Assembly: GCA_039638595.1 (NCBI GenBank)
Contig: JBDIWM010000020.1
Location: forward strand, 1 to 37,056
From: Atribacterota bacterium
Lineage (GTDB): Bacteria > Atribacterota > Atribacteria > Atribacterales > Caldatribacteriaceae
Reading direction: 5' to 3'
Length of the DNA: 37,056 nt
The first letter of the stretch is position 1; the number at the start of each line of letters is the position of its first letter. The translations under genes were made by a program, and so were the position numbers. The notes under the pieces are model-generated. The model was not told the origin of the DNA and did not search any database. It was given only the letters and a program-made list of their open reading frames with translations. Shown here piece after piece: positions 2,776 through 30,647 of the stretch.

Positions 2776-2784
2776 GTGTGGAAA

Positions 2785-3873: not shown

Positions 3874-3886
3874 GGGGAGGAGTGTT

Positions 3887-7431: not shown

Positions 7432-8829
7432 ATGAAAAAGATGAGTGGGTTTGTGGTTGTTTTGATGCTCGTATTTTTGGTCTCTGTGGTTGGGGCTCAA
7501 GAAGATCCTCTGGCCTATTATCAGCAGGCGAAAGTCAACTGGAAGGCTTTTGAGGGAACGCAGTTAACGATTGGCTTGAATAAGCATCCGTTTACCGAGT
7601 CCTTAAGGCCGTTACTGCCTATTTTTGAACAGTTGACTGGTATTAAGGTTGCTTACGTGATTTTGCCGGAGGAGGAGTTTTTTGAAAAGCTCCTTATCGA
7701 CCTTTCCAGTGGTGGTGGTATCTTTGATGTGTACATGACCTCACCTATGTTCGAGTGGCGATACCAGTATGCGGGATGGATTGAAGACCTGAATCCCTAC
7801 TGGAATAACCCAGAACTCACGGATCAGGCCTGGTATAATCGTGACGATTTCTATGAGAAACCGTTGCGGGCCAATATGTGGGATGGAACGATTGCTGGAG
7901 GATTGGGACAGGGGCGGTGGAATGGTATTCCGGTAATGGTTGAATTCTTCTGCCAGGCTTATCGGAATGACTTACGAGAAAAATGGGGTCTCACTGTGCC
8001 CACCACCTATCCAGACCTCTTGGATACTCTGGCCAAAGCGGCTGAATTAGGAAAGCAGGAAAAACCTCAGGTGTACGGAGTCGCCAATCGTGGCATTAAA
8101 AGCTGGTCGACGGTGCATTCAGGGTACTTTACTGCTTTTAGCACCTACGGGCAGAAGGACCTCAATCCTGATTTAACGGCGGCGATCAACACTCCTCAAG
8201 CTAAAGAAATCACCAAGATCTGGGTTGATATTCTTCAGAAGGCTGGACCTCCGGGTTGGCCAAACTATACCTGGTATGATGCCAAACAAAACTTTGCTGC
8301 AGGGAGATTCTATGAAATCACAGATTGTGACTTCTTTGCGGCCACTTATGAGAATCCGGCTCAGTCGGTAGTAGCAGGCAAAACCGGATATGCATTGCCT
8401 CCAGCAGCGCCTGATGGAAACATTACTTCAAACATGTGGACCTGGTCCCTGGGAATGAGTTCGCTTTCTAAACACAAAGGGGCAGCATGGTTGTTCCTCT
8501 TGTGGGCTACTGCTCCACAGACCATGCTTGACGGGACTTTGAAGCACGATAACTTTAATCCAACCAGAAAATCGGTTTGGGAAAATCCAGCAGTGGTAGA
8601 GAAAACCATGAAATGGGGTACCAAACCTGGTGAATATCGAGAAATTGTGGATGCCATGTATGCAAAGTATGGTGACATCCGCTGGACTCCTAACCCCGAT
8701 GTGACGGCGATTGGTGATATCTGGGCTGAAGCGCTCCATGAGGCGTATGAAGGGAAGAAAGCCGTGGATCAGGCCCTGGATGACGCAGCGGTGAAGATTA
8801 ACGAGTTTATGGCGAAGTGGAAAAAATAG
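7432..8829 (+). CDS. sugar/polyol ABC transporter substrate-binding protein (family 1), transporter 2
   Basis: A 465-residue extracytoplasmic solute-binding protein. The signal peptide (MKKMSGFVVVLMLVFLVSVVGAQ) has no lipobox Cys, so the protein is either released by signal peptidase I or stays anchored. The mature part follows the family-1 pattern: FEQLTGIKVAYVILPEEEFFEKL, FDVYMTSPMFEWRYQYAGWIEDL, WNGIPVMVEFFCQAYRNDL, and a C-terminal AWLFLLWATAP segment. Aromatic-rich stretches (PGWPNYTWYDAKQNF, TSNMWTWSLGMSS) suit a sugar or polyol site. ATG 7432 follows AGGAGGG. First gene of the region B transporter operon; substrate unknown. Confidence 0.92.
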   Translation: MKKMSGFVVVLMLVFLVSVVGAQEDPLAYYQQAKVNWKAFEGTQLTIGLNKHPFTESLRPLLPIFEQLTGIKVAYVILPEEEFFEKLLIDLSSGGGIFDVYMTSPMFEWRYQYAGWIEDLNPYWNNPELTDQAWYNRDDFYEKPLRANMWDGTIAGGLGQGRWNGIPVMVEFFCQAYRNDLREKWGLTVPTTYPDLLDTLAKAAELGKQEKPQVYGVANRGIKSWSTVHSGYFTAFSTYGQKDLNPDLTAAINTPQAKEITKIWVDILQKAGPPGWPNYTWYDAKQNFAAGRFYEITDCDFFAATYENPAQSVVAGKTGYALPPAAPDGNITSNMWTWSLGMSSLSKHKGAAWLFLLWATAPQTMLDGTLKHDNFNPTRKSVWENPAVVEKTMKWGTKPGEYREIVDAMYAKYGDIRWTPNPDVTAIGDIWAEALHEAYEGKKAVDQALDDAAVKINEFMAKWKK

Positions 8830-8847
8830 AGTTATACAGAGGGATGG

Positions 8848-8881
8848 TTCTGTGGGATGAGGGCAACCTCATCCCACAGAA
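8848..8881 (+). promoter_or_regulatory. perfect 15-bp hairpin between binding-protein and permease genes
   Basis: Bases 8848-8862 pair perfectly with 8867-8881 around a GCAA (GNRA-type) tetraloop, starting 18 bases after the binding-protein stop. No T-run follows (TGAGAAG), and the permease ribosome binding site lies just beyond, so this is not a standard terminator. Such hairpins often protect upstream binding-protein mRNA from 3' decay or cause partial termination, giving excess binding protein. Confidence 0.8.
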
Positions 8882-8905
8882 TGAGAAGAGAGAGGGGTGT
8901 CAATT

Positions 8906-9808
8906 TTGGCCAGTGGAATGGAGTTGCGTCAAAGTTTTTGGCGGAAAAATATTGCTTTGTTGCTTTTTCTTCCGGCTTTTCTTTTGACGGTAGGGATTCT
9001 CGCTCCTTTCGGTTATTCTGTGGTTATGTCTTTTACCAATTTCAATTTGACCACTGGAACTTCCAATTTTATCGGGATTAGCAATTATATAAAACTGGTT
9101 CGCGATCCGGAATTCTGGAACTCTCTCAAGGTTACGATTCTTTTTACCATCGGTGCGGTGCTTTTTGAAGTTGGCGTTGGTTTTATTGCGGCATATCTTT
9201 TGAATATCGGTTTATTGGGTCAGAAACTGTGGCGTACCCTTTTCCTCCTTCCGGTGATGTTACCACCTACGGTCGCAGCAATTATGTGGAAACTGATGAT
9301 GGCCCCTATCCAGGGAGTGTTCAATTACCTTTTGCAACTTGTGGGACTTCCTGGTTCCGAATGGCTGGGAAGCTCAAGCACAGCTCTTTTATCTGTTATC
9401 CTCATTGATGCATATGTATTCATTCCCTTTGCTGGTATGATTTTCCTGGCAGGAGTCCAGAATTTGCCTAAGGAACCGTATGAGGCTGCAGCTGTGGATG
9501 GGGTTTCAAACTGGTTTACCTTCCGAAAGTTGACCATTCCTCTTTTGAAGCCGGTTATTATCATTGTGCTCCTCTTTAGGATTATGGATTGTCTCAAACA
9601 TTTTGACATCATTTATGCAGCGACAAAAGGTGGTCCGGCCAGTGCTACAATGACTCTTTCAGTGCAGGCATACTATCACAGTTTTCGCTGGACGGCCATG
9701 GGATATTCTTTCGCACACCTCGTGGTGTTGTGGGCGATTGTTTATGCTTTGAGTTATTTCCTGGTGGGCCAATGGAAAAAGGCAGTTAGCGAAGTCCATG
9801 GATACTAA
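8906..9808 (+). CDS. CUT1-type sugar ABC transporter permease, MalF/UgpA family, transporter 2
   Basis: Inner-membrane permease of about 300 residues. TTG 8906 has GAGGGG eight bases upstream and is preferred; GTG 8897 in the same frame overlaps that ribosome binding site. Helix 1 is NIALLLFLPAFLLTVGILAPF; the EAA coupling loop is YEAAAVDGVSNWFTFRKLTIP, with the usual Gly; the MalF-type segment TKGGPASATMTLS is present. Its stop overlaps the next reading frame's first possible ATG, so expression is coupled to the MalG-type partner. Confidence 0.93.
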   Translation: MASGMELRQSFWRKNIALLLFLPAFLLTVGILAPFGYSVVMSFTNFNLTTGTSNFIGISNYIKLVRDPEFWNSLKVTILFTIGAVLFEVGVGFIAAYLLNIGLLGQKLWRTLFLLPVMLPPTVAAIMWKLMMAPIQGVFNYLLQLVGLPGSEWLGSSSTALLSVILIDAYVFIPFAGMIFLAGVQNLPKEPYEAAAVDGVSNWFTFRKLTIPLLKPVIIIVLLFRIMDCLKHFDIIYAATKGGPASATMTLSVQAYYHSFRWTAMGYSFAHLVVLWAIVYALSYFLVGQWKKAVSEVHGY

Positions 9809-9828
9809 TGCGGTGGAGGTTTGGGCGA

Positions 9829-10692
9829 ATGAATAGTGAAAAGTTTTCTATAGTTCAGTTTGTGTCGCTTATTGGTCTTATTCTTTTGATGTTGTGGACC
9901 GCTTTTCCTCTTTATTGGGTATTCAATATGTCGATCCAAACACCCTTAGATGTTATTTCCTATCCACCAAAGTTCGTTTTTGATGCGACTCTGGAAAATT
10001 ATTCGGTAGTGCTTCTGGGAAAAGCATGGTTGGGAAAGTATGAAACCGTTCAGACTGACTTCCCCCGTTATTTTTTGAATAGTTTAATTGTTTGTTTTGG
10101 AGCGGTGGGACTGAGTATGCTCGTGGGAGTGCCGGCAGCGTATTCCCTGGCCCGGTATAATTTTCGAGGTAAAGAGAACTTTGCTTTTACGCTTCTCAGT
10201 TTCCGATTTGCACCGGGGTTAATTGTTATCTTACCTCTTTTTGTCATTTTTAGAAGACTGGGTATTTATGGAACATACCATGGGATGATGATTGCCTACC
10301 AGTTGATTACCTTACCTTTTTCAGTATGGCTCATGAGAGGTTTCTTTGAGGATATTCCCATGGAATTGGAACATGCAGCCCGGATTGACGGGTATTCGTG
10401 GTGGGGAATTTTCCGCAAAGTTGATTTGCCTCTTGTTGCTCCAGGTATTGCAGCAACCGCGATTCTCTCTTTCATCTTTGCTTGGAATGAATTTCTCTTT
10501 GGATATATTCTTTCCTCTGATGTCACTCGGCCGGTTACTCCGTCTCTCATGGGGTTCATTTCCTACGAACAGGTTTTGTGGGGGCAAATGGCTGCTGCTG
10601 CGATTATCACCCTCTTGCCATCTCTGATTTTGGCCATTTTTATTCAGAGATACTTGGTGCGCGGTCTGACCTTTGGTGCAGTGAAGGGATGA
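9829..10692 (+). CDS. CUT1-type sugar ABC transporter permease, MalG family, transporter 2
   Basis: Partner permease of about 287 residues. ATG 9829 is preferred because GGAGGT (9815-9820) lies eight bases ahead; ATG 9808, overlapping the previous stop, would put that site inside the gene. The EAA loop LEHAARIDGYSWWGIFRKVDLP, the FAWNEFLFG motif and the C-terminal RGLTFGAVKG are all typical of MalG-type subunits. The segment between helices 1 and 2 includes GKAWLGKYETVQTDFPRYF, slightly longer than in the other two MalG-type proteins here. Confidence 0.93.
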   Translation: MNSEKFSIVQFVSLIGLILLMLWTAFPLYWVFNMSIQTPLDVISYPPKFVFDATLENYSVVLLGKAWLGKYETVQTDFPRYFLNSLIVCFGAVGLSMLVGVPAAYSLARYNFRGKENFAFTLLSFRFAPGLIVILPLFVIFRRLGIYGTYHGMMIAYQLITLPFSVWLMRGFFEDIPMELEHAARIDGYSWWGIFRKVDLPLVAPGIAATAILSFIFAWNEFLFGYILSSDVTRPVTPSLMGFISYEQVLWGQMAAAAIITLLPSLILAIFIQRYLVRGLTFGAVKG

Positions 10693-10702
10693 GGAGGAAG
10701 AC

Positions 10703-11827
10703 ATGGTGGAGTTGGAGCTCAGAAATGTAACCAAGAGGTATGGGAGTCTGGTGGCAGTGAAAGACTTGTCCTTTAGAACCCGCAAAGGAGAACTTGTCGT
10801 TTTACTGGGTCCTCCTGGTGCAGGAAAGAGTTCCACCTTGAAGATGGTGGCTGGCGTGGAAAATGTGACATCCGGTGAAATTTTGATGGATGGTCAGGTC
10901 ATTAACCATTTTGACCCCGCTGAGCGGGATGTAGCTATGGCCTTCGAGACGTATGCTCTGTATCCGCATCTTTCGGTGTTTGAAAATATCGCTTTCCCCC
11001 TGCGTTCACCGAAGAGAGCTCGTAATTTTTCTGAGGAAGCGGTGAGGAAAAGGGTTCTTGAAGTCGCTCGGTTTCTGGAAATTGACATGCTTTTGGAGCG
11101 AAAGCCAAAAGAACTGAGTGGTGGACAACGGCAGAGAGTGAGTTTAGCTCGATGTCTCATTCGGGAGCCCAAGGCTTTTCTTTTGGATGAACCGATTGCA
11201 CATCTCGACGCTAAGCTCCGGCACCGCTTAAGAAGGGAATTGAAAAAATGGCAGGAAGAACGTGGTACCACTACTCTCTATACCACTACTGATTATCTGG
11301 AAGCTTTTTCGGTAGCGGATCGGATTACGGTATTAAATAGGGGGATCTTAGAACAAATTGGAACCTGGGAGGAGATTTATAACCACCCAGCAAGCCAATT
11401 TGTGGGTATGATTGTGAGTGATCCGCCCATGAACTACGCCGATGCAAATGTTGTTACAAAAGACGGTGAAATTGTTCTGGATGTGAAAGGGATTTTATTC
11501 AGATTGTCATCTTTTACCCAGGAAAAAATCCGTGCCATGAAATTCCAGGAAGTTATCATGGGTATTTTTCCAAGTAAAATTGTACCTTTAGCGCCCGGTT
11601 TATCTTCCTCTTCTGGGACAATTGTTCATGGTGTAGCGAAATTTGTGGAACTGCGTGGTTCGAGGAAAATTGTTTTCGTGGCTACTGAAAAGAACTTCAC
11701 TTTCACCGTCCAGCTCTCAGCGGAGGAAAAGGTGAAACCGGGGGATACGGTGCAGTATTTCTTCGGAATGGAAGAGATTCAGGTGTTTGATCGAGAATCC
11801 AAAAAGAACATCATTTTCCTTAGTTAG
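10703..11827 (+). CDS. CUT1-type ABC transporter ATPase lacking the switch histidine, transporter 2
   Basis: A 374-residue MalK/UgpC-like ATPase, ATG behind GAGGAGG. Walker A is GPPGAGKSS (about 36-44), the signature LSGGQRQRVSLAR is intact, and Walker B is FLLDEPIAHLD with its catalytic Glu. Two key positions differ: the Q-loop Gln is Glu (MAFETYALYPH, about 82), and the H-loop reads LYTTTDYLEAF, with Thr (about 196) where homologues have THD. The ATPase at 20529 in the third transporter has LYTTHDYREAL at this point, so the His was probably lost here. A TOBE-type C-terminal domain is present. It is paired with the ATPase encoded immediately downstream. Confidence 0.93.
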   Translation: MVELELRNVTKRYGSLVAVKDLSFRTRKGELVVLLGPPGAGKSSTLKMVAGVENVTSGEILMDGQVINHFDPAERDVAMAFETYALYPHLSVFENIAFPLRSPKRARNFSEEAVRKRVLEVARFLEIDMLLERKPKELSGGQRQRVSLARCLIREPKAFLLDEPIAHLDAKLRHRLRRELKKWQEERGTTTLYTTTDYLEAFSVADRITVLNRGILEQIGTWEEIYNHPASQFVGMIVSDPPMNYADANVVTKDGEIVLDVKGILFRLSSFTQEKIRAMKFQEVIMGIFPSKIVPLAPGLSSSSGTIVHGVAKFVELRGSRKIVFVATEKNFTFTVQLSAEEKVKPGDTVQYFFGMEEIQVFDRESKKNIIFLS

Positions 11828-11837
11828 GTGATGCAAA

Positions 11838-12959
11838 ATGGCAGAGGTGCGAGTAGAGCATGTCTGGAAATTTTACCGGGAAGAGGCTGGTGCTGCTCAA
11901 AGGATAGAAGCAGTGAAGGATGCTTCGTTTCGGTGCGAGGATAGAGAATTTCTGTGTTTATTGGGTCCCTCAGGGTGTGGTAAGACCTCAACGTTGAGAA
12001 TGATTGCTGGGTTAGAAAAGATTTCCCGAGGAGATATCTACATAGGTGAAAAAAGGGTTAATGATTTGCCACCGAAGGACCGAATGTTGGCCATGTCTTT
12101 TGAGTCGTACGCCCTGTATCCGCCTTTGAGTGTATACGATAACATCGCTTTTCCCCTGCGAGCGAGGAAATATCCCGAGAACAAGATCAAGGAGAAGATA
12201 TCCATTGTGGCGGACCTCTTAGATATTGGAGATATTTTGAGTTTTAAGCCGGCAAAGTTGAGCGGTGGTGAGCAGCAGAGGGTTTCTCTAGCTCGGGCTT
12301 TGGTGCGGGAAGATGCTCAGGTGACGCTGATGGATGAACCAATATCACATCTTGATGCTCAATTGAAGGCCAAACTCCGTATCGATTTGAAGCGAATCCA
12401 GAGGGAATGGAATTTAACAGTCATATATGTGACCCACGACCAGCTTGAAGCACTCAGTATGGCTGATAAAGTGGTGGTTATGAATCTTGGGGAAATTCAG
12501 CAGGTCGGAAGCCCAGAAGATCTCTACGAAAGACCAGCGAACCTTTTTGTAGCTGGTTTTATTGGTGAACCTCCGATGAATTTCATCGAATGCTCCTTGG
12601 TGGAAGAAGGTGGACAATCCTTTCTTAAATTCCATGAATTTACCTTTCCTCTTTCCAGTGAATTGGCTCAAAAAATGAAAAAAGAGGATGGCAAAGAAAA
12701 GTGGATTGTGGGTGTCCGTCCTGGTGATGTGCTTTTGGGAGTGGAAGTGGAAGGTGGGTACACCATGAAGGGTTTGGTATATAGCGTAGAACCTTTGGGA
12801 GAATCTTCTATTGTTATTCTGGAGGTAAACGGGCAGAGAATTTTTGCGGAAGTAGCTGGTTCTTCGGTGGAAAAAGAGGGAAATGTGGTGACTTTTTCTT
12901 TCCACCGGGAAAAGGCTCACATCTTTAATGCTTCAACAGGAAAGTCTATCAAAATATAA
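11838..12959 (+). CDS. CUT1-type ABC transporter ATPase, second subunit, transporter 2
   Basis: A 373-residue MalK/UgpC-like ATPase, ATG behind TTAGGTGATG. It carries a short insertion after the first strand (REEAGAAQRIEAVKD). Walker A GPSGCGKTS, signature LSGGEQQRVSLARA, Walker B VTLMDEPISHLD and the switch His (IYVTHDQ, about 200) are intact; the Q-loop residue is Glu (MSFESYALYPP, about 89). As probable heterodimer partner of the preceding ATPase it would supply the one site with a complete Walker B and His set. Its C-terminal TOBE region is complete. Confidence 0.93.
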   Translation: MAEVRVEHVWKFYREEAGAAQRIEAVKDASFRCEDREFLCLLGPSGCGKTSTLRMIAGLEKISRGDIYIGEKRVNDLPPKDRMLAMSFESYALYPPLSVYDNIAFPLRARKYPENKIKEKISIVADLLDIGDILSFKPAKLSGGEQQRVSLARALVREDAQVTLMDEPISHLDAQLKAKLRIDLKRIQREWNLTVIYVTHDQLEALSMADKVVVMNLGEIQQVGSPEDLYERPANLFVAGFIGEPPMNFIECSLVEEGGQSFLKFHEFTFPLSSELAQKMKKEDGKEKWIVGVRPGDVLLGVEVEGGYTMKGLVYSVEPLGESSIVILEVNGQRIFAEVAGSSVEKEGNVVTFSFHREKAHIFNASTGKSIKI

Positions 12960-12971
12960 AGGGGTGAAACC

Positions 12972-14075
12972 ATGTCGTATTTTGAAGCGGTTGAGGGTTT
13001 GCCAAAAAAGATGAAGGCGGTGGTAGCGTATAAGCCCGGGGATTATCGGCTTGAGGAAGTGGACGTACCCGACCTTGATGATGAGGAAGTGTTACTCCGG
13101 GTGGGAGGATGCGGAATTTGTGCCGGGGATGTGAAGGGGTACCATGGTGCACCATCGTTCTGGGGTGGAGAAGGGCAACCGTCGTGGATCAAGGCTCCTT
13201 TTATTCCTGGGCATGAGTTCTACGGTCAGGTAGTGGCGCTGGGAAAAGGAGCCAGGGAGAAGTATGGGTTATCTTTGGGAGATTGGGCGGTTTCGGAACA
13301 GATTATTCCCTGTGGAAAATGCCGCTTTTGTCTTGAGGGAAAGTACTGGATGTGCGAAGTGCACAATATTTATGGTTTTCAGGGTAAGGTGGCCGATGGT
13401 GCCTATGCTGAGTATGTGAGGCTTCCCAAAACGGCCAGAAATTATAAACTGCCGGAAGGTTTCCCTCTGAAGGTTGCCCCCTATGTGGAACCTCTGGCTT
13501 GTGCTATCCATGCCGTAGAGCGGGGTGATATTCAGTTTAACGATGTGGTGGTGATTGCTGGGTTGGGAGCCCTGGGCTTAGGGATGGTTCAGGCAGCCCG
13601 ATTGAAGAACCCCAAAATGCTGATCGCGATTGATATTCGGGAAAAACGTTTGCAGTTAGCCAAGGAATATGGTGCTGACTTAATTTTGAATCCTCAAAAG
13701 GAGGACGTGGTAGGCAAAGTGAAATCCCTCACCGGTGGGTATGGCTGCGATGTGTATATCCAGGCCAGTGGCCATCCCTCCGGAGCGGTTCAGGGTTTGC
13801 AGATGATTCGTAAGCTCGGTCGTTTTGTGGAATTCAGCGTCTACAATGATCCGGTGACCGTGGACTGGAGTATCATTGGAGACCGGAAAGAACTTGATTT
13901 GCGCGGTGCCCACTTGAGTCCCTATACCTACGAGAGCACGATTCGGTTTCTGAACGATGGTCGGATCAAGGCGGATCAGATCATCACCCATGAGATTCCC
14001 TTGGCTGAGTTCAAAAGAGGTTTTGAGATGGTGGAGAAAGGGGAAGAGTCAATTAAGGTCGTATTGATTCCATAA
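12972..14075 (+). CDS. zinc-dependent polyol/alcohol dehydrogenase (MDR family)
   Basis: A 367-residue medium-chain dehydrogenase of the sorbitol/threonine dehydrogenase type. Catalytic zinc ligands are visible as Cys in CGGCGICAGD-like GGCGICAGDVK, His-Glu in PGHEFYG, and Glu in VEPLACAIHAVE. The structural zinc site is CGKCRFCLEGKYWMC. The Rossmann motif is AGLGALGLGMVQ, and an Asp at the end of strand 2 (AIDIREKR) favours NAD. ATG 12972 follows AAGGGGTGAAACC. It heads the catabolic block with RpiB-like, DhaK, DhaL and SDR genes, so it probably oxidises an imported polyol to a ketose, or reduces an aldose. The exact substrate is not known. Confidence 0.9.
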   Translation: MSYFEAVEGLPKKMKAVVAYKPGDYRLEEVDVPDLDDEEVLLRVGGCGICAGDVKGYHGAPSFWGGEGQPSWIKAPFIPGHEFYGQVVALGKGAREKYGLSLGDWAVSEQIIPCGKCRFCLEGKYWMCEVHNIYGFQGKVADGAYAEYVRLPKTARNYKLPEGFPLKVAPYVEPLACAIHAVERGDIQFNDVVVIAGLGALGLGMVQAARLKNPKMLIAIDIREKRLQLAKEYGADLILNPQKEDVVGKVKSLTGGYGCDVYIQASGHPSGAVQGLQMIRKLGRFVEFSVYNDPVTVDWSIIGDRKELDLRGAHLSPYTYESTIRFLNDGRIKADQIITHEIPLAEFKRGFEMVEKGEESIKVVLIP

Positions 14076-14092
14076 GAAGAAGGAGTGAGAGA

Positions 14093-14551
14093 ATGTACCT
14101 GGCTATTGCATCGGACCATTTTGGGTATCCCTTGAAAGCAGTGTTGGTGGAACACCTGAAGAGTAAGAATGTGGAATTTGAAGACCTGGGAGTTTTTTCA
14201 GAGAATGAAGTGGTGGATTACCCTGATGTGGCGTTAGAGCTTTGTCTTGGAATTCGAGAGGGAAAATATCAGTATGGGGTTTTGGTCTGCGGAACCGGCA
14301 TCGGAATGGCTATGGCGGCCAACAAGGTTCCAGGGATATACGCGGCCTGTGCCCATGATATCTACTCTGCAGAGCGAGCTAAGAAGAGTAACAACTCTAA
14401 CGTTCTTACTTTAGGGCGACACATTGTGGGTCCGGAGTTGGCCAAGATGCTCCTTGATGCCTGGTTAGGGAGTGAATTTCAGGGCGGAAGGTCGTTACCC
14501 AAAGTGAAGAAAATTCGGGAGATAGAGAAAAAATTAATGAAGGGGGAATAA
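14093..14551 (+). CDS. RpiB/LacAB-family sugar-phosphate isomerase, possibly tetrulose-phosphate specific
   Basis: 152 residues, the usual RpiB length, ATG behind AGAAGGAGTGAGAG. It aligns with E. coli RpiB from memory: SDHFG near the N-terminus, the catalytic Cys66 in CGTGIGMAMAANK, and GGR phosphate-binding residues near the C-terminus. The position of His99, which opens the ribose ring in RpiB (E. coli RQHNDTNVL), is Ser here (KKSNNSNVL). A ring-opening residue is not needed for acyclic erythrulose 4-phosphate or erythrose 4-phosphate, and RpiB homologues acting on tetrulose phosphates are known in erythritol and threitol pathways. Lying next to DhaK/DhaL and a threitol-type dehydrogenase, that role is likely. 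The specificity is inferred. Confidence 0.87.
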   Translation: MYLAIASDHFGYPLKAVLVEHLKSKNVEFEDLGVFSENEVVDYPDVALELCLGIREGKYQYGVLVCGTGIGMAMAANKVPGIYAACAHDIYSAERAKKSNNSNVLTLGRHIVGPELAKMLLDAWLGSEFQGGRSLPKVKKIREIEKKLMKGE

Positions 14552-14554
14552 ATA

Positions 14555-15553
14555 GTGAAAAAGTTCATCAATCATCCAGAAAACTTAGTTGAGGAAATGT
14601 TGGAAGGATTTGTCAAGGCCAATGTTGATAAGGTTCGGAGATTACCCACCGAAAGGGTTCTGGTGCGAAAAGATGCACCAGTGAAAGGAAAAGTGGGAAT
14701 CGTGACTGGGGGTGGTTCAGGACATAAGCCGGCTTTTATCGGATACATTGGGAAAGGCCTTGTGGATGCGGTGGCAGTGGGTGATATTTTTGCTGCCCCC
14801 CCGGTCCAGAGAGTATATGAGGCCATCAAGGCCGTGGATGGTGGAAAAGGAGTTCTCCTGTGTCTGGGAAATTACTCTGGAGATGTGATGAACTTTGGCA
14901 TGGCTGCTGAGCTGGCTCAGGCAGAGGGAATTCCAATAGAGAGTGTCATTGTGAATGATGATGTGGCCTCGAGTCCTAAGGATCGGATGGATAATCGCCG
15001 GGGTGTAGCTGGAGAGGTCATTCTCTGGAAAGTGGTGGGAGCTCTGGCGGAGGAAGGAGCAGATTTAGCCAAAATGAAGGAGGTGGGAACCCGGGCTGTT
15101 TTTAATACCCGCAGTCTCGGGGTAGCCCATACACCCTGTATCATGCCTTCTTCAGGGAAGCCGAGTTTTGAGATTGGGGAAGATGAAATGGAGATTGGTG
15201 TAGGTCACCATGGAGAACCGGGTATACAAAGGATGAAAATGATGAGCGCTGATGAAGTTACAGAACTCATGACTTTGAAAGTGATCGAAGACCTTCCTTT
15301 TAAATCTGGGGATGAAGTGACCGTGCTCATCAATGGACTGGGTTCAACTTCACTTCTTGAAATGTACATCTCTTTCCGGAAGGTGGCTCAGATTCTTGCC
15401 GATCATTCCATCAAGATTCATCGGACATACATTGGTGAATTCTTTACCTCCATGGAGATGGGTGGTTTCTCAGTGACACTCACCAAAATGGATGATGAAT
15501 TAAAGCGTCTTATGGATGCCCCCTGTAACGGAGTTCACTTTATCCAACATTGA
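14555..15553 (+). CDS. dhaK: dihydroxyacetone kinase-type subunit DhaK (or ketotetrose kinase substrate subunit)
   Basis: A 332-residue DhaK, full length, GTG start behind GGGGGAATAA. It binds the ketose substrate and works with the DhaL encoded next. GGGSGHKPAFIGY carries the conserved His (about 56-57), NYSGDVMNF the Asp, and GVGHHGEPGIQ the His (about 219) that forms the covalent hemiaminal with dihydroxyacetone in known DhaK proteins. Related kinases in mycobacterial erythritol/threitol pathways phosphorylate erythrulose instead. The neighbouring RpiB-like isomerase and SDR favour a C4 or C3 ketose. Confidence 0.92.
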   Translation: MKKFINHPENLVEEMLEGFVKANVDKVRRLPTERVLVRKDAPVKGKVGIVTGGGSGHKPAFIGYIGKGLVDAVAVGDIFAAPPVQRVYEAIKAVDGGKGVLLCLGNYSGDVMNFGMAAELAQAEGIPIESVIVNDDVASSPKDRMDNRRGVAGEVILWKVVGALAEEGADLAKMKEVGTRAVFNTRSLGVAHTPCIMPSSGKPSFEIGEDEMEIGVGHHGEPGIQRMKMMSADEVTELMTLKVIEDLPFKSGDEVTVLINGLGSTSLLEMYISFRKVAQILADHSIKIHRTYIGEFFTSMEMGGFSVTLTKMDDELKRLMDAPCNGVHFIQH

Positions 15554-15571
15554 AGTAAGGGAGGTTTTGCG

Positions 15572-16213
15572 GTGGGCGTATCGTTTGAAAGAGTGAAAAT
15601 GGCTTTTGTTCGAATACTTGAAGAACTAGAAAAAAATCGCCAGTATCTCAATGATCTTGATGCTCCGATTGGGGATTCAGACCACGGAGATAGTGTCACC
15701 AATGCGTTTCGAAAAGTAAAAGAAGCAGTGGATAAATATCCAGAAGGAGATCGGGATATTGGAAAACTTCTTCAAGAAGTGGGGAAATCCATCATCTTTT
15801 CCGGAGGGGCGGCCATGGGGCCTCTTTATGGGACTGCCTTTATGGATGCCGGGAAGGTGGTCAGTGGGAAACCTGAGCTGACTCCTCAGGATGTGGTGAC
15901 CATGTGGGAAGCTTTTGCCGGAGGCATTGCCCGTCGAGGAAATGCTAAGATGGGCGAAAAAACCATGTACGACACCATTTATCCCATGGTGGAATCGCTC
16001 AAGGCATCTTTAGCTGCTGGAGAGGGCTTTGAGGAAATGATAACGAGGGCCATCGAAAGAGCTCGGCAGGGAATGGAATCAACCAAAGATATGCTCTCTC
16101 TGCGAGGTCGTTCCAGCCGCCTTGGAGAACGAAGCATTGGTCACATTGATCCTGGAGCTGCGTCGAGCTTTATCGTCATTAAGGCATTTCTGGAAACATT
16201 ACTTGAAAAGTGA
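15572..16213 (+). CDS. dhaL: dihydroxyacetone kinase-type nucleotide-binding subunit DhaL
   Basis: 213 residues, GTG start behind GGGAGG. It carries the Mg-ADP/ATP-binding features of DhaL: APIGDSDHGDS near residue 32 (Asp ligands of the two Mg ions), GGAAMGPLYGTAF, GEKTMYDTIYP and LGERSIGHIDPGAAS. It transfers phosphate to the ketose held by DhaK. No DhaM or other PTS gene is in the window, so the phosphate donor (ATP directly, or a distant DhaM) is open. It overlaps neither neighbour; 18 bases separate it from dhaK. Confidence 0.92.
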   Translation: MGVSFERVKMAFVRILEELEKNRQYLNDLDAPIGDSDHGDSVTNAFRKVKEAVDKYPEGDRDIGKLLQEVGKSIIFSGGAAMGPLYGTAFMDAGKVVSGKPELTPQDVVTMWEAFAGGIARRGNAKMGEKTMYDTIYPMVESLKASLAAGEGFEEMITRAIERARQGMESTKDMLSLRGRSSRLGERSIGHIDPGAASSFIVIKAFLETLLEK

Positions 16214-16225
16214 GGAGGATTTGGC

Positions 16226-16996
16226 TTGAGTGAATTTCAGGTTGATATTTCGTTTTCCTTAAAGGATAAAGTTGCTCTCGTTACCGGTGGAGCCCGAGGG
16301 ATTGGCAAGGCTATCGCCATCCTCTTTGCTCAAAATGGTGCCCGTACGGTACTGGTCGACCTTGACCCGGTGGTGGAGTCAGTAGCACGAGAAGTTTCCG
16401 CGTTGGGCAATAGCAGCATTGCGGTTGTAGCTGATGTGACGAAGAAAGAAGATGTGGAAAAGGTTGTAACCACAGCGGTCCAGGAGTTTGGGACGATTGA
16501 TATTCTGGTCAATAACGCTGGTGTAGCATACCTCGATGATGCAGAAAACCTTTCCGAAGAGTCCTGGGACAAAACCATGGCTGTTAATCTCAAAGCTCCT
16601 TTCTTGCTGGCTCAAACCGCAGGAAAGGTGATGATTCAGAATAAGAAGGGAAAAATCATCAACATTGCTTCCCAGGCTGGAATCGTTGCTCTTGATAAAC
16701 ATGTCGCATACTGTGCCAGTAAAGCTGGCCTTATTGGCATGACCAAGGTTCTGGCTCTGGAATGGGCGGAGTTTGGCATCAATGTCAATGCCATTGCTCC
16801 TACGGTGATTTTGACTGAACTGGGCAAAAAAGCCTGGGCTGGTGAAGTAGGAGAAGCCATGAAAAAGAAAATCCCCTTACGACGTTTTGGTTATCCGGAA
16901 GAAGTCGCTGCTGCAGCGCTCTATCTTGCGAGTCCTGCTTCAGACCTTGTGACTGGAGAGACTCTGGTCATCGATGGTGGATATACCATTCAGTAA
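16226..16996 (+). CDS. SDR-family polyol dehydrogenase, resembling D-threitol/GolD-type glycerol dehydrogenases
   Basis: A 256-residue classical short-chain dehydrogenase, TTG start behind GAGGAGG. The cofactor motif is TGGARGIG with Asp at the end of strand 2 (VDLD, NAD preference), followed by VNNAG. The catalytic Ser-Tyr-Lys sits in NIASQAGIVALDKH and AYCASKAG. Several stretches look, from memory, very close to the GolD/D-threitol dehydrogenase group: ENLSEESWDKTMAVNLKAPF, TVILTELGKKAWAGEVGEAM and VIDGGYTIQ at the C-terminus. It would oxidise D-threitol to D-erythrulose, or glycerol to dihydroxyacetone, feeding the DhaK/DhaL pair encoded upstream. Confidence 0.9.
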   Translation: MSEFQVDISFSLKDKVALVTGGARGIGKAIAILFAQNGARTVLVDLDPVVESVAREVSALGNSSIAVVADVTKKEDVEKVVTTAVQEFGTIDILVNNAGVAYLDDAENLSEESWDKTMAVNLKAPFLLAQTAGKVMIQNKKGKIINIASQAGIVALDKHVAYCASKAGLIGMTKVLALEWAEFGINVNAIAPTVILTELGKKAWAGEVGEAMKKKIPLRRFGYPEEVAAAALYLASPASDLVTGETLVIDGGYTIQ

Positions 16997-17099: not shown

Positions 17100-18404
17100 A
17101 TGATCAAAAAGGTCACAATGTTGGTGGTGAGTTGTTTTTTGGTGTTTGGTGTAACAGCGCTGGCTTTTGGTTGGAGCCTTGAGGAAGCAGCGAAACCTTA
17201 TGCTGGAGCGACGATACGATTTATTACCGAAACGACGCCCCCCAGTTACTGGATTGAGGAAGCTTTGCCTGAGTTTGAGAAAGCGACTGGCATCAAAGTA
17301 ATTGTTGAACGGCAAGCACATCCTCACCTTGAGGAGAAGGCGTTAATGGATTTTGCAGCGGGGACTGGAATCTATGACGTATTTAACTTTGATTATTCCT
17401 GGACTGGCAAATATGTGAAAGCTGGATATATTGAACCATTTGATAAATACATTAACGATCCGAAATTGGCTGATCCGAACAATGACCTTAAAGATTTCTA
17501 TTCCCGGATGTGGGAGGGAACCAGCTGGGATGGTGTCCCTTATGGTTATCCTTTCGACAGCGTTATTGAGTATCTCTTCTGGAACAAGGCCATTTTTGAT
17601 AAATATGGTGTAGCTGGACCACCAAAAACGCCGGATGAGTGGATGGATGCCATGGCAAAGCTTAATCATCCACCAGAGCTCTATGGAACTGGGATGCAGG
17701 CCAAGCGACATCTCTCTATTGTCTGTGAGTGGCTCAATGTCCTGTGGGCCTTTGATGGTGACCTGTACGATGAAGATTACAACGTACTGCTCAACAATGA
17801 AAATGCCATGAAGGCTACAGAATTCTATAAGAAGATGGCTGAATATGCACCTCCTGGTGTGACCACCTGGACCTGGGACGACGTGAACACTGCGTTGCAA
17901 CAAGGAATTGTGGCGCAAACCATCCAATGGGACGAAAACTATGGAAGCATGGAAGATCCCGAGGAGTCCAAGGTTGTTGGTCAAATGCGCTACGCTCCAG
18001 TTCCTACGGCTCGCGCTGATGGGAAACCGGTATCTCACTATGGTGGTTCAAGTTTAGGTATCCCAGTTTCTTCCAAAAATAAAGAGGCAGCCTTCCTCTT
18101 TATTCAGTGGGCGACAAGCTATGATGTCCAGCTTCGGGGTGTAGGTAAAGGGTCTTCTCCTACAAGAAGGTCCATTTATCAAATTCCGGAACTAAGGGCA
18201 AAATATCCCAGCTTTGAGGCGACCGACGCTGCAGCCGAAACCACATTCTGGAGACCTCGTATTCCTGAATGGGATGAAATGGTGGAAGTACTGGCTCTGG
18301 AGCTTAATTCAGTTGTGGCTGGTGCAAAAGACGTGAAAGAAGCTCTGGCTACTTCAGCGGCGAAGATTGAAGAAATTCTTGTGAAAGGTGGTTACAAGAA
18401 GTAA
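17100..18404 (+). CDS. sugar/polyol ABC transporter substrate-binding protein (family 1), transporter 3
   Basis: A 434-residue extracytoplasmic binding protein with signal peptide MIKKVTMLVVSCFLVFGVTALAFG. Its one Cys sits inside the hydrophobic core rather than at a clear lipobox end. Mature-part features include LPEFEKATGIKVIVERQAH, GTGIYDVFNFDYSWTGKYVKAGYIEP, WDGVPYGYPFDSVIEYLFWNK and AAFLFIQWATSYDVQ, all typical of family-1 sugar-binding proteins. It differs strongly from the protein at 7432, so the two transporters probably take different substrates. ATG 17100 follows GGAAGGAGGG. Confidence 0.92.
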   Translation: MIKKVTMLVVSCFLVFGVTALAFGWSLEEAAKPYAGATIRFITETTPPSYWIEEALPEFEKATGIKVIVERQAHPHLEEKALMDFAAGTGIYDVFNFDYSWTGKYVKAGYIEPFDKYINDPKLADPNNDLKDFYSRMWEGTSWDGVPYGYPFDSVIEYLFWNKAIFDKYGVAGPPKTPDEWMDAMAKLNHPPELYGTGMQAKRHLSIVCEWLNVLWAFDGDLYDEDYNVLLNNENAMKATEFYKKMAEYAPPGVTTWTWDDVNTALQQGIVAQTIQWDENYGSMEDPEESKVVGQMRYAPVPTARADGKPVSHYGGSSLGIPVSSKNKEAAFLFIQWATSYDVQLRGVGKGSSPTRRSIYQIPELRAKYPSFEATDAAAETTFWRPRIPEWDEMVEVLALELNSVVAGAKDVKEALATSAAKIEEILVKGGYKK

Positions 18405-18407
18405 TTT

Positions 18408-18449
18408 TTTGTTAGTTGGGGGAAGAGTGTTCTTCCCCCAACTAACAAA
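18408..18449 (+). promoter_or_regulatory. perfect 19-bp hairpin between binding-protein and permease genes
   Basis: Bases 18408-18426 pair without mismatch with 18431-18449 around a GTGT loop, beginning 3 bases after the binding-protein stop and ending at the permease ribosome binding site (GGGGGTAG). No T-run follows on the + strand. As at 8848-8881, this probably stabilises the upstream binding-protein message or lets only part of transcription through. Confidence 0.82.
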
Positions 18450-18463
18450 GGGGGTAGAAAATT

Positions 18464-19396
18464 TTGTCTAAAGACCATTTTTCTCTCTATCGAAGGTTCA
18501 GTTCCTGGATTTCTAAAACCGAAAATCGTTTCAAATGGGTTTTGATTCTACCCACCATTGTTCTTTTAGCTTTGATTACAGTATATCCTACTCTTTACGC
18601 CTTGCGATTAGCGTTATCTGATTATAACCTGGCTCGAGCAGCTGAAACCCTCAAGGGTTATATCGGTTTGGACAATTTTCGAGAAATCTTAAAAGATGTA
18701 ACTTTTTGGGGTTCTCTGAGAACGACTGTTGTATTCACAGTCGTTGTGGTAACCGTCGAGTTTTTCTTGGGTCTTGTGATTGCGCTGATTCTGCAGGGGG
18801 TGATTACCCGCTCAAAGATTGTCCGTACTTTCATTCTGTTACCTATGATTATGGCTCCCATCGTGGTAGGGTTAACCTGGACCTATCTCTATCAATCAGA
18901 ATTTGGTTTGGTTACTTATATTCTACGCAAACTTCATCTTATGAGTTATCGAACTGCGCCCCTTGCTGATGTAAGGACTGCGCTTCCAGCTCTTATGGTT
19001 GTGGACATATGGCAGTGGACCCCTTTTTTGATTATGGTTCTTCTCGCTGGGTTAGAGGCTCTTCCTACTGCTCCCTATGAAGCAGCGAGGATTGACAAAG
19101 CTCCACCTTTTCTTGTATTCCGGAAAATTACTTTGCCACTGTTGAAGCCTGTTATTCTCATTGTTTTGGTTTTGCGAATTATGGATGCAATCAGGGTTTT
19201 TGATATCGTGTACGCTTTAACTGAGGGTGGTCCAGGAGAGGCAACCGACGTGCTTAGTATGTTTATCTATCGGAATAGCTTTTATCTTTGGAATATCGGT
19301 AAAGCTTCGGCACTCTCTTTCATCTTGCTTTACATCATTATGATTATTTCGGTTATCCTGGTGAATGTGCTGAGCCGCGTTAAAGAAGCTGTGTGA
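18464..19396 (+). CDS. CUT1-type sugar ABC transporter permease, MalF/UgpA family, transporter 3
   Basis: A 310-residue membrane permease; TTG 18464 lies behind GGGGGTAG, the start fixed by that site. Helix 1 is WVLILPTIVLLALITVYPTLYAL. The EAA coupling loop is YEAARIDKAPPFLVFRKITLP, with Lys where the conserved Gly should be, and LTEGGPGEATDVLS follows. Its order with the MalG-type gene is the usual F-then-G order. The Gly replacement parallels the Arg in the MalF-type protein at 1780. Confidence 0.93.
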   Translation: MSKDHFSLYRRFSSWISKTENRFKWVLILPTIVLLALITVYPTLYALRLALSDYNLARAAETLKGYIGLDNFREILKDVTFWGSLRTTVVFTVVVVTVEFFLGLVIALILQGVITRSKIVRTFILLPMIMAPIVVGLTWTYLYQSEFGLVTYILRKLHLMSYRTAPLADVRTALPALMVVDIWQWTPFLIMVLLAGLEALPTAPYEAARIDKAPPFLVFRKITLPLLKPVILIVLVLRIMDAIRVFDIVYALTEGGPGEATDVLSMFIYRNSFYLWNIGKASALSFILLYIIMIISVILVNVLSRVKEAV

Positions 19397-19433
19397 TGGT
19401 TGTGTAGTGCAAAGCAGTGCTTTTTAAGGGGTG

Positions 19434-20264
19434 ATGTTTTTGGAAAAAGAGAGAGCAAAACTTATAGTGGCGTGGGTGATTATTACCGTTATTATGGTGG
19501 TCAATGTACTGCCGTTTGTCTGGTTAATCTTAACTTCTTTGAAGACTCGCCTCGATATCTTTGCCATCCCCCCACGTTTTATTTTTCAACCTACATGGAA
19601 GAACTACGTATCGGCCTTTGGGAAGAGGCATTTTCTCCCCATGTTCTATAATAGCCTCATCATCTCGGTAAGTACCACGTTGCTTTCTCTGGCTGTTGGA
19701 ACACTGGGTGCATATGCTTTAGCCCGTTTTCGTCTTTTTGGAGGGAAACACATTTCCTTTTGGATTCTCAGCACCAGAATGTTTCCGCCTATCGTTCTTG
19801 TTATTCCCTTCTATATTATGGCCACTCGCTGGGGGTTGCATGATTCGAGATTTCTCATGGTGATTGTGTATACAACCTTTAATCTACCTTTTGTGGTGTG
19901 GATTATGCGCAGTTTCTTTGAAGATATTCCCTATGACCTCGAAAAAGCCGCTATGGCTGATGGGTACACTCGATGGGATGCCTTCTGGAAGATTATTCTT
20001 CCTTTAAGCGCGCCAGGCCTAGTGACCACGGCAATTTTGTGTTTCATATTCTCCTGGAATGAATTCCTGTTTGCCAACGTTTTGACTGCGGCGGTGGCCA
20101 AAACCGTTCCCGTGGGTATTCGTGGATTGGTGACCTCCCGGGCAATTGAGTGGGGTGAAATTGCGGCAGTGGCGACTCTGCAGGTTATTCCTGTGCTGGC
20201 CTTCACCTTTGCGGTGCAGAAGTATATCATCAGGGGTCTCACCTTAGGTGCAGTAAAAGGTTAA
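19434..20264 (+). CDS. CUT1-type sugar ABC transporter permease, MalG family, transporter 3
   Basis: Partner permease of about 276 residues. Possible starts are GTG 19431, ATG 19434 and TTG 19440; AAGGGG at 19426-19431 gives TTG 19440 the best spacing, while ATG 19434 is the best codon. The EAA loop LEKAAMADGYTRWDAFWKIILP, the FSWNEFLFANV motif and the C-terminal RGLTLGAVKG identify the family. Its EAA region resembles that of the truncated MalG-type permease at 2-667 (both DGYTRW), suggesting transporters 1 and 3 are closer to each other than to transporter 2. Confidence 0.92.
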   Translation: MFLEKERAKLIVAWVIITVIMVVNVLPFVWLILTSLKTRLDIFAIPPRFIFQPTWKNYVSAFGKRHFLPMFYNSLIISVSTTLLSLAVGTLGAYALARFRLFGGKHISFWILSTRMFPPIVLVIPFYIMATRWGLHDSRFLMVIVYTTFNLPFVVWIMRSFFEDIPYDLEKAAMADGYTRWDAFWKIILPLSAPGLVTTAILCFIFSWNEFLFANVLTAAVAKTVPVGIRGLVTSRAIEWGEIAAVATLQVIPVLAFTFAVQKYIIRGLTLGAVKG

Positions 20265-20287
20265 ATGAAAAAGAGGGAATGAACGCC

Positions 20288-20521
20288 ATGGACTTTGGAT
20301 TTGGAGATCGTTTGTTCGTTTCGGTGATGTTGACGTTTGGCCTGGGGTTTTTATGGTTAGGATGGCTAGAACGTTATGTGACGATTTGGGTTGTACCTTT
20401 TATAGGTTTTGCGGTAGCTTTGATGTTGATCATTCCATGGTATAAGGTCTTCCGGATGGAAAGGAAAAAGGAACAAGAAGAACTTAAACGTATGGAAAAA
20501 CAAGCCCTGAAAGAAAGGTGA
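20288..20521 (+). CDS. small two-helix membrane protein of sugar transporter operon
   Basis: A 77-residue protein. ATG 20288 lies about 9 bases after GAGGGA; ATG 20279 is too close to that site. Two hydrophobic segments (LFVSVMLTFGLGFLWLGWL and IWVVPFIGFAVALMLIIPW) are followed by a highly charged tail (RMERKKEQEELKRMEKQ) that would face the cytoplasm. I see no named domain. It sits between the permease and ATPase genes of transporter 3, as another small two-helix protein follows the ATPases of transporter 1; transporter 2 has none. An accessory role in that transporter is inferred. Confidence 0.75.
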   Translation: MDFGFGDRLFVSVMLTFGLGFLWLGWLERYVTIWVVPFIGFAVALMLIIPWYKVFRMERKKEQEELKRMEKQALKER

Positions 20522-20528
20522 ATGGGCC

Positions 20529-21632
20529 ATGGCTGACTTAATGCTCAAAAATGTTTGGAAAAAGTATGGGGAAGTTGTAGCGCTAAAAGGAATCAATCTT
20601 CATGTGCATGATGGAGAGCTTGTTACCATTCTTGGTCCCTCTGGTGCCGGCAAGACTTCACTTTTACAAACCATTGCTGGAGTAGAAGAGATACAGGTAG
20701 GAGAGATTTATATTGGAGGACAACAGGTAGCGAGTCTTCCCCCTTTCCAGCGGAACGTAGCGATGATTTTTGAGACCTATGCGCTTTATCCGAACAAAAC
20801 GGTTTATGAAAACATGGCTTTCCCCTTGCGTTCGCCTTATATTAAGTTTCCCGAAGAGGAGATTGATAAGCGGGTGAAAGAGGTCAGCACGATGTTGCAA
20901 ATCGACTGGCTTTTGGATCGGAATGTGGCTCAGCTTTCGGGAGGACAGAAGCAGCGAGTTGCTTTAGGGAGAATGTTAGTTCGCAACCCCCGGCTTTTTC
21001 TAATGGATGAGCCTATTGCGCATCTTGATGCCAAACTCCGTCATCGTCTGCGGGCTGAGCTGAAAAATATTCAAAGAACATTTGGTATTACTACCCTGTA
21101 TACCACTCATGATTATCGAGAAGCCCTGGGCATGGGTGACAGGGTAGTAATCCTCAATCAGGGGGTTATAGTTCAGGTTGGCACGCCTGATGATATTTAC
21201 AATGTTCCGCAAAACGAGTTTGTAGCGGGGTTAGTTGGTGACCCACCCATGAACTTCTTTGATGGCACCTTCGTTGAATCGGATGGTGGTCTTCTTGTGC
21301 AGACAAGAGCCTTCCAGCAAATGGTTCCGGATGACATCGTTAACCGTTTACGCTCGTTGAGGGATAACCGCGTAAAGGTTGGGCTCAGACCTTCGGACAT
21401 TTCTATATCGAAGGAAGAAATTTCTTATGGTTTTGGAGCTCGAGTTTATGTGGTTGAACCCCTGGGGGTCGTAAAAGTTATCACCCTGGAAAGAGAGGGC
21501 GTGAAGTTTCAGATTAAGTATATGGGCGACGAAAGTTTTGAGATGGGTGAAACCACTTTCTTTCATTTTCCTCCAGAACGTCTCTATTTCTTTAATCCAG
21601 AGACGGGCTTGAATCTTCTTATTTCTGAATAG
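20529..21632 (+). CDS. CUT1-type ABC transporter ATPase, first subunit, transporter 3
   Basis: A 367-residue MalK/UgpC-like ATPase, ATG behind AAAGGTGAATGG. Walker A GPSGAGKTS, signature LSGGQKQRVALGR, Walker B LFLMDEPIAHLD and the switch His (LYTTHDYREAL, about 194) are all present. The Q-loop residue is Glu (MIFETYALYPN, about 82). It closely parallels the ATPase at 10703, sharing DEPIAHLDAKLRHRLR, but retains the His that one lacks. The C-terminal domain is TOBE-like. Confidence 0.93.
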   Translation: MADLMLKNVWKKYGEVVALKGINLHVHDGELVTILGPSGAGKTSLLQTIAGVEEIQVGEIYIGGQQVASLPPFQRNVAMIFETYALYPNKTVYENMAFPLRSPYIKFPEEEIDKRVKEVSTMLQIDWLLDRNVAQLSGGQKQRVALGRMLVRNPRLFLMDEPIAHLDAKLRHRLRAELKNIQRTFGITTLYTTHDYREALGMGDRVVILNQGVIVQVGTPDDIYNVPQNEFVAGLVGDPPMNFFDGTFVESDGGLLVQTRAFQQMVPDDIVNRLRSLRDNRVKVGLRPSDISISKEEISYGFGARVYVVEPLGVVKVITLEREGVKFQIKYMGDESFEMGETTFFHFPPERLYFFNPETGLNLLISE

Positions 21633-21646
21633 GGGCGGGTGGAGCG

Positions 21647-22756
21647 ATGGCCAGTGTCAGTTTGCGGAATTTATGGAAGAAGTATGGAAAAGTGGAGGCG
21701 GTGAAGGGGATTAATCTTGATGTTGAAGATAAGGAGTTTGTTGCTTTTCTCGGTCCTTCAGGTTGTGGAAAGACCTCGACCATGAGGATGATAGCGGGGT
21801 TAGAGCATATCTCAGGGGGAGAGATTTATATTGGTGGAAGATTGGTGAATCATCTTGGCCCCGAGGAACGCAATATTGCCATGGCTTTTGAATCATATGC
21901 TTTATATCCACCGATGACCGTTTTTGATAATATTGCCTTTCCTTTAAAGGCAGCAAAGGTACCTGAGGGGGAAATTAAAAAAAGGGTTTATCGCATTGCT
22001 GAAATTCTGGAGTTAACTGATGTGCTCAATAAGCACCCGAAAGGTTTGAGTGGTGGGCATCAACAGAGGGTTTCCTTGGCCAGAGCGTTGGTGCGTGATG
22101 CAGATGTGTATCTCCTTGATGAGCCCATCTCTCATCTGGATACCAAAATGCGCAACCGAATGCGGGCCGAGCTGAAAAGAATTCATCAAGAATTAAAAAG
22201 TACCGTTATTTATGTAACCCATGACCAGATTGAAGCTCTGGCCATGGCTGATAAGGTGGTGGTGATGAACGAAGGTTTGATTAAACAGATTGGGACACCT
22301 CAAGAAGTTTATTTTAAGCCCCGCAATATTTTCGTGGCAGATTTTGTAGGGGAACCGCCAATGAATTTTCTGGATTGTGCTATTCTTCTAAAAAGTGACC
22401 ACTGCCAGGTGGTTATTGATAATCTTTATTTCCAGATTTTTGATCCTGAAAAATTAGCCGTACTCAAGGGACTGCCGCCTTCGAAGTTGAATACGTTGGT
22501 TTTGGGGATAAGACCGTGTCATATCGATATCCTTTCAGAACCTTCCACTTTGGGTAGGGGTGAAGTAAAAGGTAAGGTTTTTCTGGTGGAACCCTTAGGA
22601 GATTCAAAAATTGTGCACGTGAGGATGAATGAGCAGCTTGTTTTAGTCGAGACCTTGGCTACGGTGCGGCAGAGAGAAGGGGATGATATTTTCATCCGTT
22701 TTCAGGAAGAGCATTTGCATCTATTTGACAAAGAGTCTGAAGAGGCAATATTCTGA
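21647..22756 (+). CDS. CUT1-type ABC transporter ATPase, second subunit, transporter 3
   Basis: A 369-residue MalK/UgpC-like ATPase, ATG behind GGGTGGAG. Walker A GPSGCGKTS, signature LSGGHQQRVSLARA (His at the last position of LSGGQ), Walker B VYLLDEPISHLD and the switch His (IYVTHDQ) are present; the Q-loop residue is Glu (MAFESYALYPP, about 82). It parallels the ATPase at 11838, so the two ATPase pairs seem to descend from one ancestral pair. It completes the third transporter module. Confidence 0.93.
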   Translation: MASVSLRNLWKKYGKVEAVKGINLDVEDKEFVAFLGPSGCGKTSTMRMIAGLEHISGGEIYIGGRLVNHLGPEERNIAMAFESYALYPPMTVFDNIAFPLKAAKVPEGEIKKRVYRIAEILELTDVLNKHPKGLSGGHQQRVSLARALVRDADVYLLDEPISHLDTKMRNRMRAELKRIHQELKSTVIYVTHDQIEALAMADKVVVMNEGLIKQIGTPQEVYFKPRNIFVADFVGEPPMNFLDCAILLKSDHCQVVIDNLYFQIFDPEKLAVLKGLPPSKLNTLVLGIRPCHIDILSEPSTLGRGEVKGKVFLVEPLGDSKIVHVRMNEQLVLVETLATVRQREGDDIFIRFQEEHLHLFDKESEEAIF

Positions 22757-23535: not shown

Positions 23536-23550
23536 GGGGGTCTTTCACTT

Positions 23551-25062: not shown

Positions 25063-25092
25063 TGAATTTGAGCGTCATTCGAGGTGAGAAAA

Positions 25093-25791: not shown

Positions 25792-25818
25792 GTCAGAATT
25801 TTTGAGGAGGTGAGTGGA

Positions 25819-28319: not shown

Positions 28320-28351
28320 CACGTTTCACCTGCAAACCCTATTATACCATT

Positions 28352-29119: not shown

Positions 29120-29130
29120 GATGTATTCCT

Positions 29131-30633: not shown

Positions 30634-30647
30634 TCTAACACTCCCGC

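Follow-up and report, generated by a model that had tools for sequence, protein, structure and literature searches.

A probable core of a tetritol import and oxidation operon, with separate DhaK and DhaL subunits, in an Atribacterota genome

Among the closest described counterparts of the locus analyzed here is the Mycobacterium smegmatis pathway for D-threitol, L-threitol, and erythritol, which comprises EltD, DthD, LerK/DerK, LerI, and DerI (Huang et al. 2015, cited in PMC10733421 and PMC12780249). EltD and LerK together convert erythritol to D-erythrulose 4-phosphate and L-threitol to L-erythrulose 1-phosphate, from which erythrose 4-phosphate is reached through LerI and DerI (PMC10733421). 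For erythritol and D-threitol, a dehydrogenase, a kinase, and DerI are therefore sufficient, and no LerI-type isomerase is required. These enzyme types are present in a five-gene run on a 37,056-nucleotide stretch of Atribacterota DNA (contig JBDIWM010000020.1; hereafter the window), which is contig 20 of a 2.1-Mb, 97% complete genome (G000). We propose that the run probably supplies the enzymes at the core of an operon through which tetritols are imported and oxidized, with erythritol and D-threitol as the likeliest substrates.

Compared by enzyme type, the window and M. smegmatis share a Zn-dehydrogenase, a short-chain dehydrogenase/reductase (SDR), a DhaK/DhaL-type kinase, and an RpiB-type isomerase for erythritol and D-threitol, with erythrose 4-phosphate as the endpoint. 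They differ in that the window encodes DhaK and DhaL as separate proteins, whereas in M. smegmatis each kinase is a single chain, and in that the window genome has no LerI. In the ery pathway of Brucella and rhizobia, the kinase acts first. That pathway also reaches erythrose 4-phosphate via an RpiB-type isomerase, but in five steps that pass through erythrulose 1-phosphate (PMC12780249). The Listeria gol operon (L167) shares RpiB, DhaK2, DhaL2, and an SDR with the window, but it additionally has DhaM2, a gene resembling triose-phosphate isomerase (TPI), transaldolase/FSA, and transketolase, and it lacks EltD and an ATP-binding cassette (ABC) importer. In the DthD-DhaK-DhaL plasmid clusters of Sinorhizobium and Shinella (L168, L202), the SDR adjoins split DhaK and DhaL of the same DhaK motif class, without DhaM and with an ABC importer; unlike the window, these stretches contain neither EltD nor RpiB, and the importer is of the ATPase/permease/periplasmic-binding type. 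Clusters of EltD, RpiB, DhaK, and DhaL in Bacillota and other phyla (L034, L070, L073, L086, L110, L065) match the window in gene set and in split DhaK/DhaL, usually without DhaM, and in three of them (L073, L110, L065) an importer precedes EltD as in the window. Many of the Bacillota clusters add GlpX, whereas the window has DthD and a second importer in addition, and its EltD falls outside their EltD clade.

The five genes occupy positions 12972-16996, all on the + strand and all intact, with gaps of 18, 4, 19, and 13 bp. Five importer genes (7432-12959) directly precede them, no gap being larger than 68 bp, and because the spacing is this tight, the importer and catabolic genes are likely carried on one transcript. 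Gene types were assigned by domain and family profile searches with NCBIfam curated cut-offs. The original prediction had placed a Zn-polyol dehydrogenase, an RpiB-like isomerase, DhaK, DhaL, and a GolD/D-threitol-like SDR in a tight run behind an importer, and coordinates, strand, and family scores bear this out for every gene. We infer the substrates, their stereochemistry, the phosphoryl donor, and co-transcription in the following scheme. Importer 1 would take up the tetritol; the EltD-like enzyme would oxidize erythritol, and the DthD-type SDR D-threitol, to D-erythrulose; DhaK would bind this tetrulose and DhaL would phosphorylate it, probably with ATP, to D-erythrulose 4-phosphate; and the RpiB/DerI-type isomerase would convert the latter to erythrose 4-phosphate, which could be used by the products of the TAL/FSA-family gene and the transketolase-domain genes that the genome holds.

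The first gene of the run (12972..14075, +; ADH_N and ADH_zinc_N domains) encodes an EltD-like Zn-dependent polyol dehydrogenase, predicted to convert erythritol to D-erythrulose. Its overall sequence relation and zinc-site residues place it with EltD: the best annotated relative, a Providencia protein annotated as erythritol/L-threitol dehydrogenase, is 57% identical, and the alignment shows no variation at the structural Cys114/117/120/128 or at Cys47/Cys50, His81-Glu82, and Glu173. That the cofactor is NAD+ is suggested by Asp221, which follows the second Rossmann strand. Close relatives are in Candidatus Atribacteria genomes. We also tried to identify the enzyme through its PDB matches, which were uninformative, comprising only threonine and polyol dehydrogenases. 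The SDR at the other end of the run (16226..16996, +), predicted to convert D-threitol to D-erythrulose, belongs to the GolD/DthD family, passing NF005309 (“GolD/DthD family dehydrogenase”) with 376.5 against a cut-off of 286 bits. It is 60% identical to its closest plasmid match, the Listeria gol-operon SDR, and 56% identical to a Sinorhizobium protein annotated as D-threitol dehydrogenase.

The kinase consists of a DhaK-type subunit (14555..15553, +; Dak1, 415 bits), predicted to bind D-erythrulose, and a DhaL-type nucleotide-binding subunit (15572..16213, +; TIGR02365, 189 against a cut-off of 138 bits). The catalytic His57, Asp110, and His219 of DhaK are conserved, and the pair has the two-subunit Dak1/Dak2 kinase fold; the nearest PDB structures to both subunits are those of dihydroxyacetone (DHA) kinases dependent on the phosphotransferase system (PTS). 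As had been predicted from the window, a PTS is lacking: the whole genome, at its 97% completeness, gave no match to EIIA-Man/DhaM, HPr, or EI-N, although control genomes responded. Since no PTS is detectable, ATP is probably the phosphoryl donor for DhaK-DhaL.

DhaK also carries a motif that sets it apart from DHA kinases. Where these have GHEPxH and KNYxGD, the window protein has GHKPAF and GNYSGD, that is, Phe60 and Gly105, which correspond approximately to His59 and Lys104 in E. coli DhaK numbering. All ten DHA-type DhaKs that we examined have the His/Lys pair, as do the E. coli and Lactococcus DhaK structures. These ten are eight plasmid proteins (from Cryobacterium, Deinococcus, Cetobacterium, Staphylococcus, Pantoea, and Cedecea, and two from Citrobacter), most of them encoded beside DhaM or a glycerol dehydrogenase, together with the second DhaK of G000 and that of G024. 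The Phe/Gly pair, in turn, is found in 36 of 36 EltD-linked DhaKs outside Atribacterota (about ten of which are fused proteins of 599-667 aa), in those Atribacterota orthologues whose sequence spans the two positions, in DthD-linked DhaKs, and in the Listeria gol DhaK; one plasmid DhaK, from Parasedimentitalea, fits neither class. These counts do not separate shared ancestry from function. The second DhaK-DhaL pair of G000 (L037:5388-8778, C41), which carries the DHA motif, is accompanied by an XRE-type regulator and a branched-chain-amino-acid-type ABC importer, a set repeated in G024 (L182). Our literature search returned nothing on the DhaK Lys104 position. We tentatively raise the possibility, itself rather doubtful, that Phe60/Gly105 marks a DhaK class acting on tetruloses or other larger ketoses and not on DHA, and that the split DhaK-DhaL of the window, although its nearest structures are of the PTS type, is driven by ATP in a PTS-free organism; the Listeria gol operon would then be a tetritol operon as well.

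Between the EltD-like and DhaK genes lies the RpiB-family isomerase (14093..14551, +), predicted to convert D-erythrulose 4-phosphate to D-erythrose 4-phosphate in the role of DerI. It scores 173 bits with NF004051 (cut-off 135) and also passes TIGR01120. The genome has three RpiB paralogues including this one, which fits a dedicated role. A LerI candidate is absent, the only TPI-family gene in the genome being on another contig (C5), and the L-threitol branch of the mycobacterial type thus lacks its isomerase here. A Klebsiella variicola plasmid (L196) encodes RpiB, a fused protein of the DhaK family with the Phe/Gly pair, a TPI-family protein, transketolase, transaldolase, and a sugar-binding regulator; together these genes resemble a full tetritol set, LerI candidate included, and the plasmid is conjugative.

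The gene set recurs outside the phylum. We took the best 80 EltD loci in named genomes, of which eight (L051-L058) were taken as Atribacterota and 72 as non-Atribacterota. DhaK lies within about 10 kb of EltD in 36 of these 72, in 28 together with RpiB, and such recurrence indicates that the linkage of EltD and DhaK is not due to chance; a DhaM-like match appears in a single locus. The order importer-EltD-RpiB-DhaK-DhaL is also found in Paenibacillus dendritiformis (L073), Petroclostridium (L110), and a member of Verrucomicrobiota (L065). A Spirochaetales contig (L087) keeps the window order as far as DhaK, and a Pseudalkalibacillus plasmid carries EltD, a major facilitator superfamily transporter, RpiB, DhaK, DhaL, and GlpX. 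Split DhaK and DhaL without DhaM beside EltD and RpiB are common in Bacillota and occur in Pseudomonadota, Spirochaetota, and Verrucomicrobiota. Therefore, the suggestion in the original prediction that the split kinase represents a variant layout finds little support, the arrangement being no peculiarity of this organism. Within the phylum, EltD directly precedes RpiB-DhaK-DhaL in the window, G011, G023, and G024. In G007, only the last 90 residues of EltD are left (L174:10704-10973, C4; 87% identical), a remnant located between a SorC regulator and RpiB-DhaK-DhaL. Since importer 1 with EltD and DthD with DhaK-DhaL form separate clusters in several relatives but are joined in the window, G011, and G023/G024, the window is a merger of two modules that have the kinase and the isomerase in common.

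Several observations weigh against a tetritol operon built around all five genes. DthD, importer 2, SDR2, XylB, DhaK, and DhaL, with RpiB where it was seen, form a separate cluster in L169-L172, L175, L177, and L178, and importer 1 and EltD stand apart from DhaK-DhaL in L039 and L043; EltD and DhaK-DhaL are therefore not obligate partners. In a tree of 86 sequences, the Atribacterota EltD-like groups A (which includes the window) and B join as one separate clade (98/100), and the DhaK-linked EltDs of other phyla fall in a different one (100/100; 37 of 43 rows DhaK-linked), so the window EltD is not placed within the DhaK/RpiB-linked clade. Because of this position we call the window dehydrogenase EltD-like only, and its substrate is read from context. 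DhaK is missing from the neighborhood of many EltD relatives. RpiB stays below the DerI model NF051858 (151 bits against a cut-off of 240), and the window protein, proposed here to act like DerI, is accordingly not classed as one. A Phe/Gly DhaK also occurs with PdxA-like and oxo-isoapionate genes as neighbors; the motif is thus not specific for tetruloses and marks “not DHA” better than “tetrulose.” Finally, the Listeria gol SDR and kinase, the latter of the Phe/Gly class, reportedly form a glycerol/DHA system.

These points lend some weight to other readings, which overlap in part with the tetritol reading. The one that survives best, though we consider it unlikely, is a locus for polyols more broadly, with EltD and importer 1 serving another polyol or a cyclitol-like substrate and with DthD, DhaK-DhaL, and RpiB working alongside importer 2, SDR2, and XylB. 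The separate clusters in relatives and the EltD tree are in its favor, as is the finding that EltD passes no NCBIfam equivalog, its best scores being sub-threshold ones for threonine dehydrogenase and scyllo-inosose dehydrogenase. It accounts poorly for the direct abutment of EltD and RpiB-DhaK-DhaL in four Atribacterota genomes, for the EltD remnant at that site in G007, and for the recurrence of the EltD-RpiB-DhaK order outside the phylum.

Somewhat less likely still is that L-threitol is the main substrate, EltD producing L-erythrulose and an upstream epimerase turning it into D-erythrulose before DhaK-DhaL, in place of LerK and LerI. A D-tagatose/D-psicose 3-epimerase-family TIM barrel of the right family is encoded at 5259..6119 (+), five to eight genes upstream; an equal position is occupied in G011, and in G005 and G008 the gene is near DthD. 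Also in favor of this reading, the genome has a single TPI and so offers no LerI candidate of that family. The PDB matches of the protein are D-tagatose, D-allulose, and L-ribulose 3-epimerases (E ~1e-39), but it stays under the cut-off of the NCBIfam PsicseEpim model (177 against 300 bits), and we regard it as a possible accessory tetrulose or pentulose 3-epimerase, with erythrulose epimerization a putative activity. Atribacterota matches aside, no such epimerase was found in the 80 EltD loci, and none adjoins the cluster in G023/G024. Least probable is catabolism of glycerol via DHA, with the SDR or EltD oxidizing glycerol and DhaK-DhaL making dihydroxyacetone phosphate: the nearest PDB structures of the kinase and the similarity to the Listeria gol SDR, reportedly a glycerol dehydrogenase, would suit it, but the Phe60/Gly105 motif, the constant RpiB partner, which has no role in the conversion of glycerol to dihydroxyacetone phosphate, the second DhaK-DhaL pair with its DHA motif, and the missing PTS donor all speak against it. 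Thus, from the original alternative of a tetritol or a glycerol/DHA block, the glycerol/DHA half is disfavored and the tetritol half is supported by the EltD-like and GolD/DthD dehydrogenases, the RpiB paralogue, the DhaK without the DHA motif, and the recurrence of the set in many phyla.

Importer 1, the proposed entry route for the tetritol, consists of an extracellular solute-binding protein (7432..8829, +; PF01547), permease A (8897..9808, +; UgpA-like, 109 bits, below the equivalog cut-off), permease B (9808..10692, +; assigned by position and conserved synteny), and ATPases A (10703..11827, +) and B (11838..12959, +), which score 351 and 364 bits with a UgpC-like subfamily model, below its cut-off of 432. 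Orthologues of the binding protein, 84-94% identical, precede EltD in other Atribacterota, and homologues, 33-36% identical, precede EltD-RpiB-DhaK in L065, L073, L092, and L110. A SorC/DeoR-type sugar-responsive regulator (6330..7286, +; PF04198 Sugar-bind, 221 bits) lies upstream, and its orthologue precedes the cluster in G011, G024, G005, G022, and G001. Downstream of the run, importer 2 (17100..22756, +; binding protein, two permeases, two ATPases) accompanies DthD in most Atribacterota. It is followed by SDR2, a XylB-type kinase, an AraD-type epimerase, and an aldo-keto reductase (22783..26619, +), which probably constitute an adjoining pentitol/pentulose module (XylB TIGR01312, 530 against a cut-off of 380; AraD NF006047, 338 against 257).

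Each of three importers in the window has two distinct adjacent ATPase genes (10703-12959, 20529-22756, and 2776-4984). In most of these ATPases, the Q-loop Gln is replaced by Glu (FETYALYP, FESYALYP), and the one at 10703-11827 has YTTTDY in place of the usual YVTHD, the H-loop His being absent. These residues suggest that the importers may be built on asymmetric ATPase pairs, of which rhizobial GlpS/GlpT is an example. A 408-aa reading frame at 550-1776 lies between two importer permease genes and shares 42% identity with an open reading frame at the corresponding position of G011 (L038:2691-3773). A nitrate/taurine-type ABC transporter, made up of an ATPase and a permease of 500 aa, is encoded at 27822-31163; two small proteins that resemble each other (166 and 171 aa) flank it, on the - strand.

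Among the papers searched, none dealt with tetritol use in Atribacterota. The locus looks like a new example of an already known kind of pathway, with a kinase motif that sets it apart from ordinary DHA kinases. That motif provides a testable means to tell DHA kinases from those acting on larger ketoses, two groups that current annotations often do not distinguish. If the tetritol reading is true, Atribacterota, known mostly from genomes, would become predicted tetritol users with a compact, expressible gene set.

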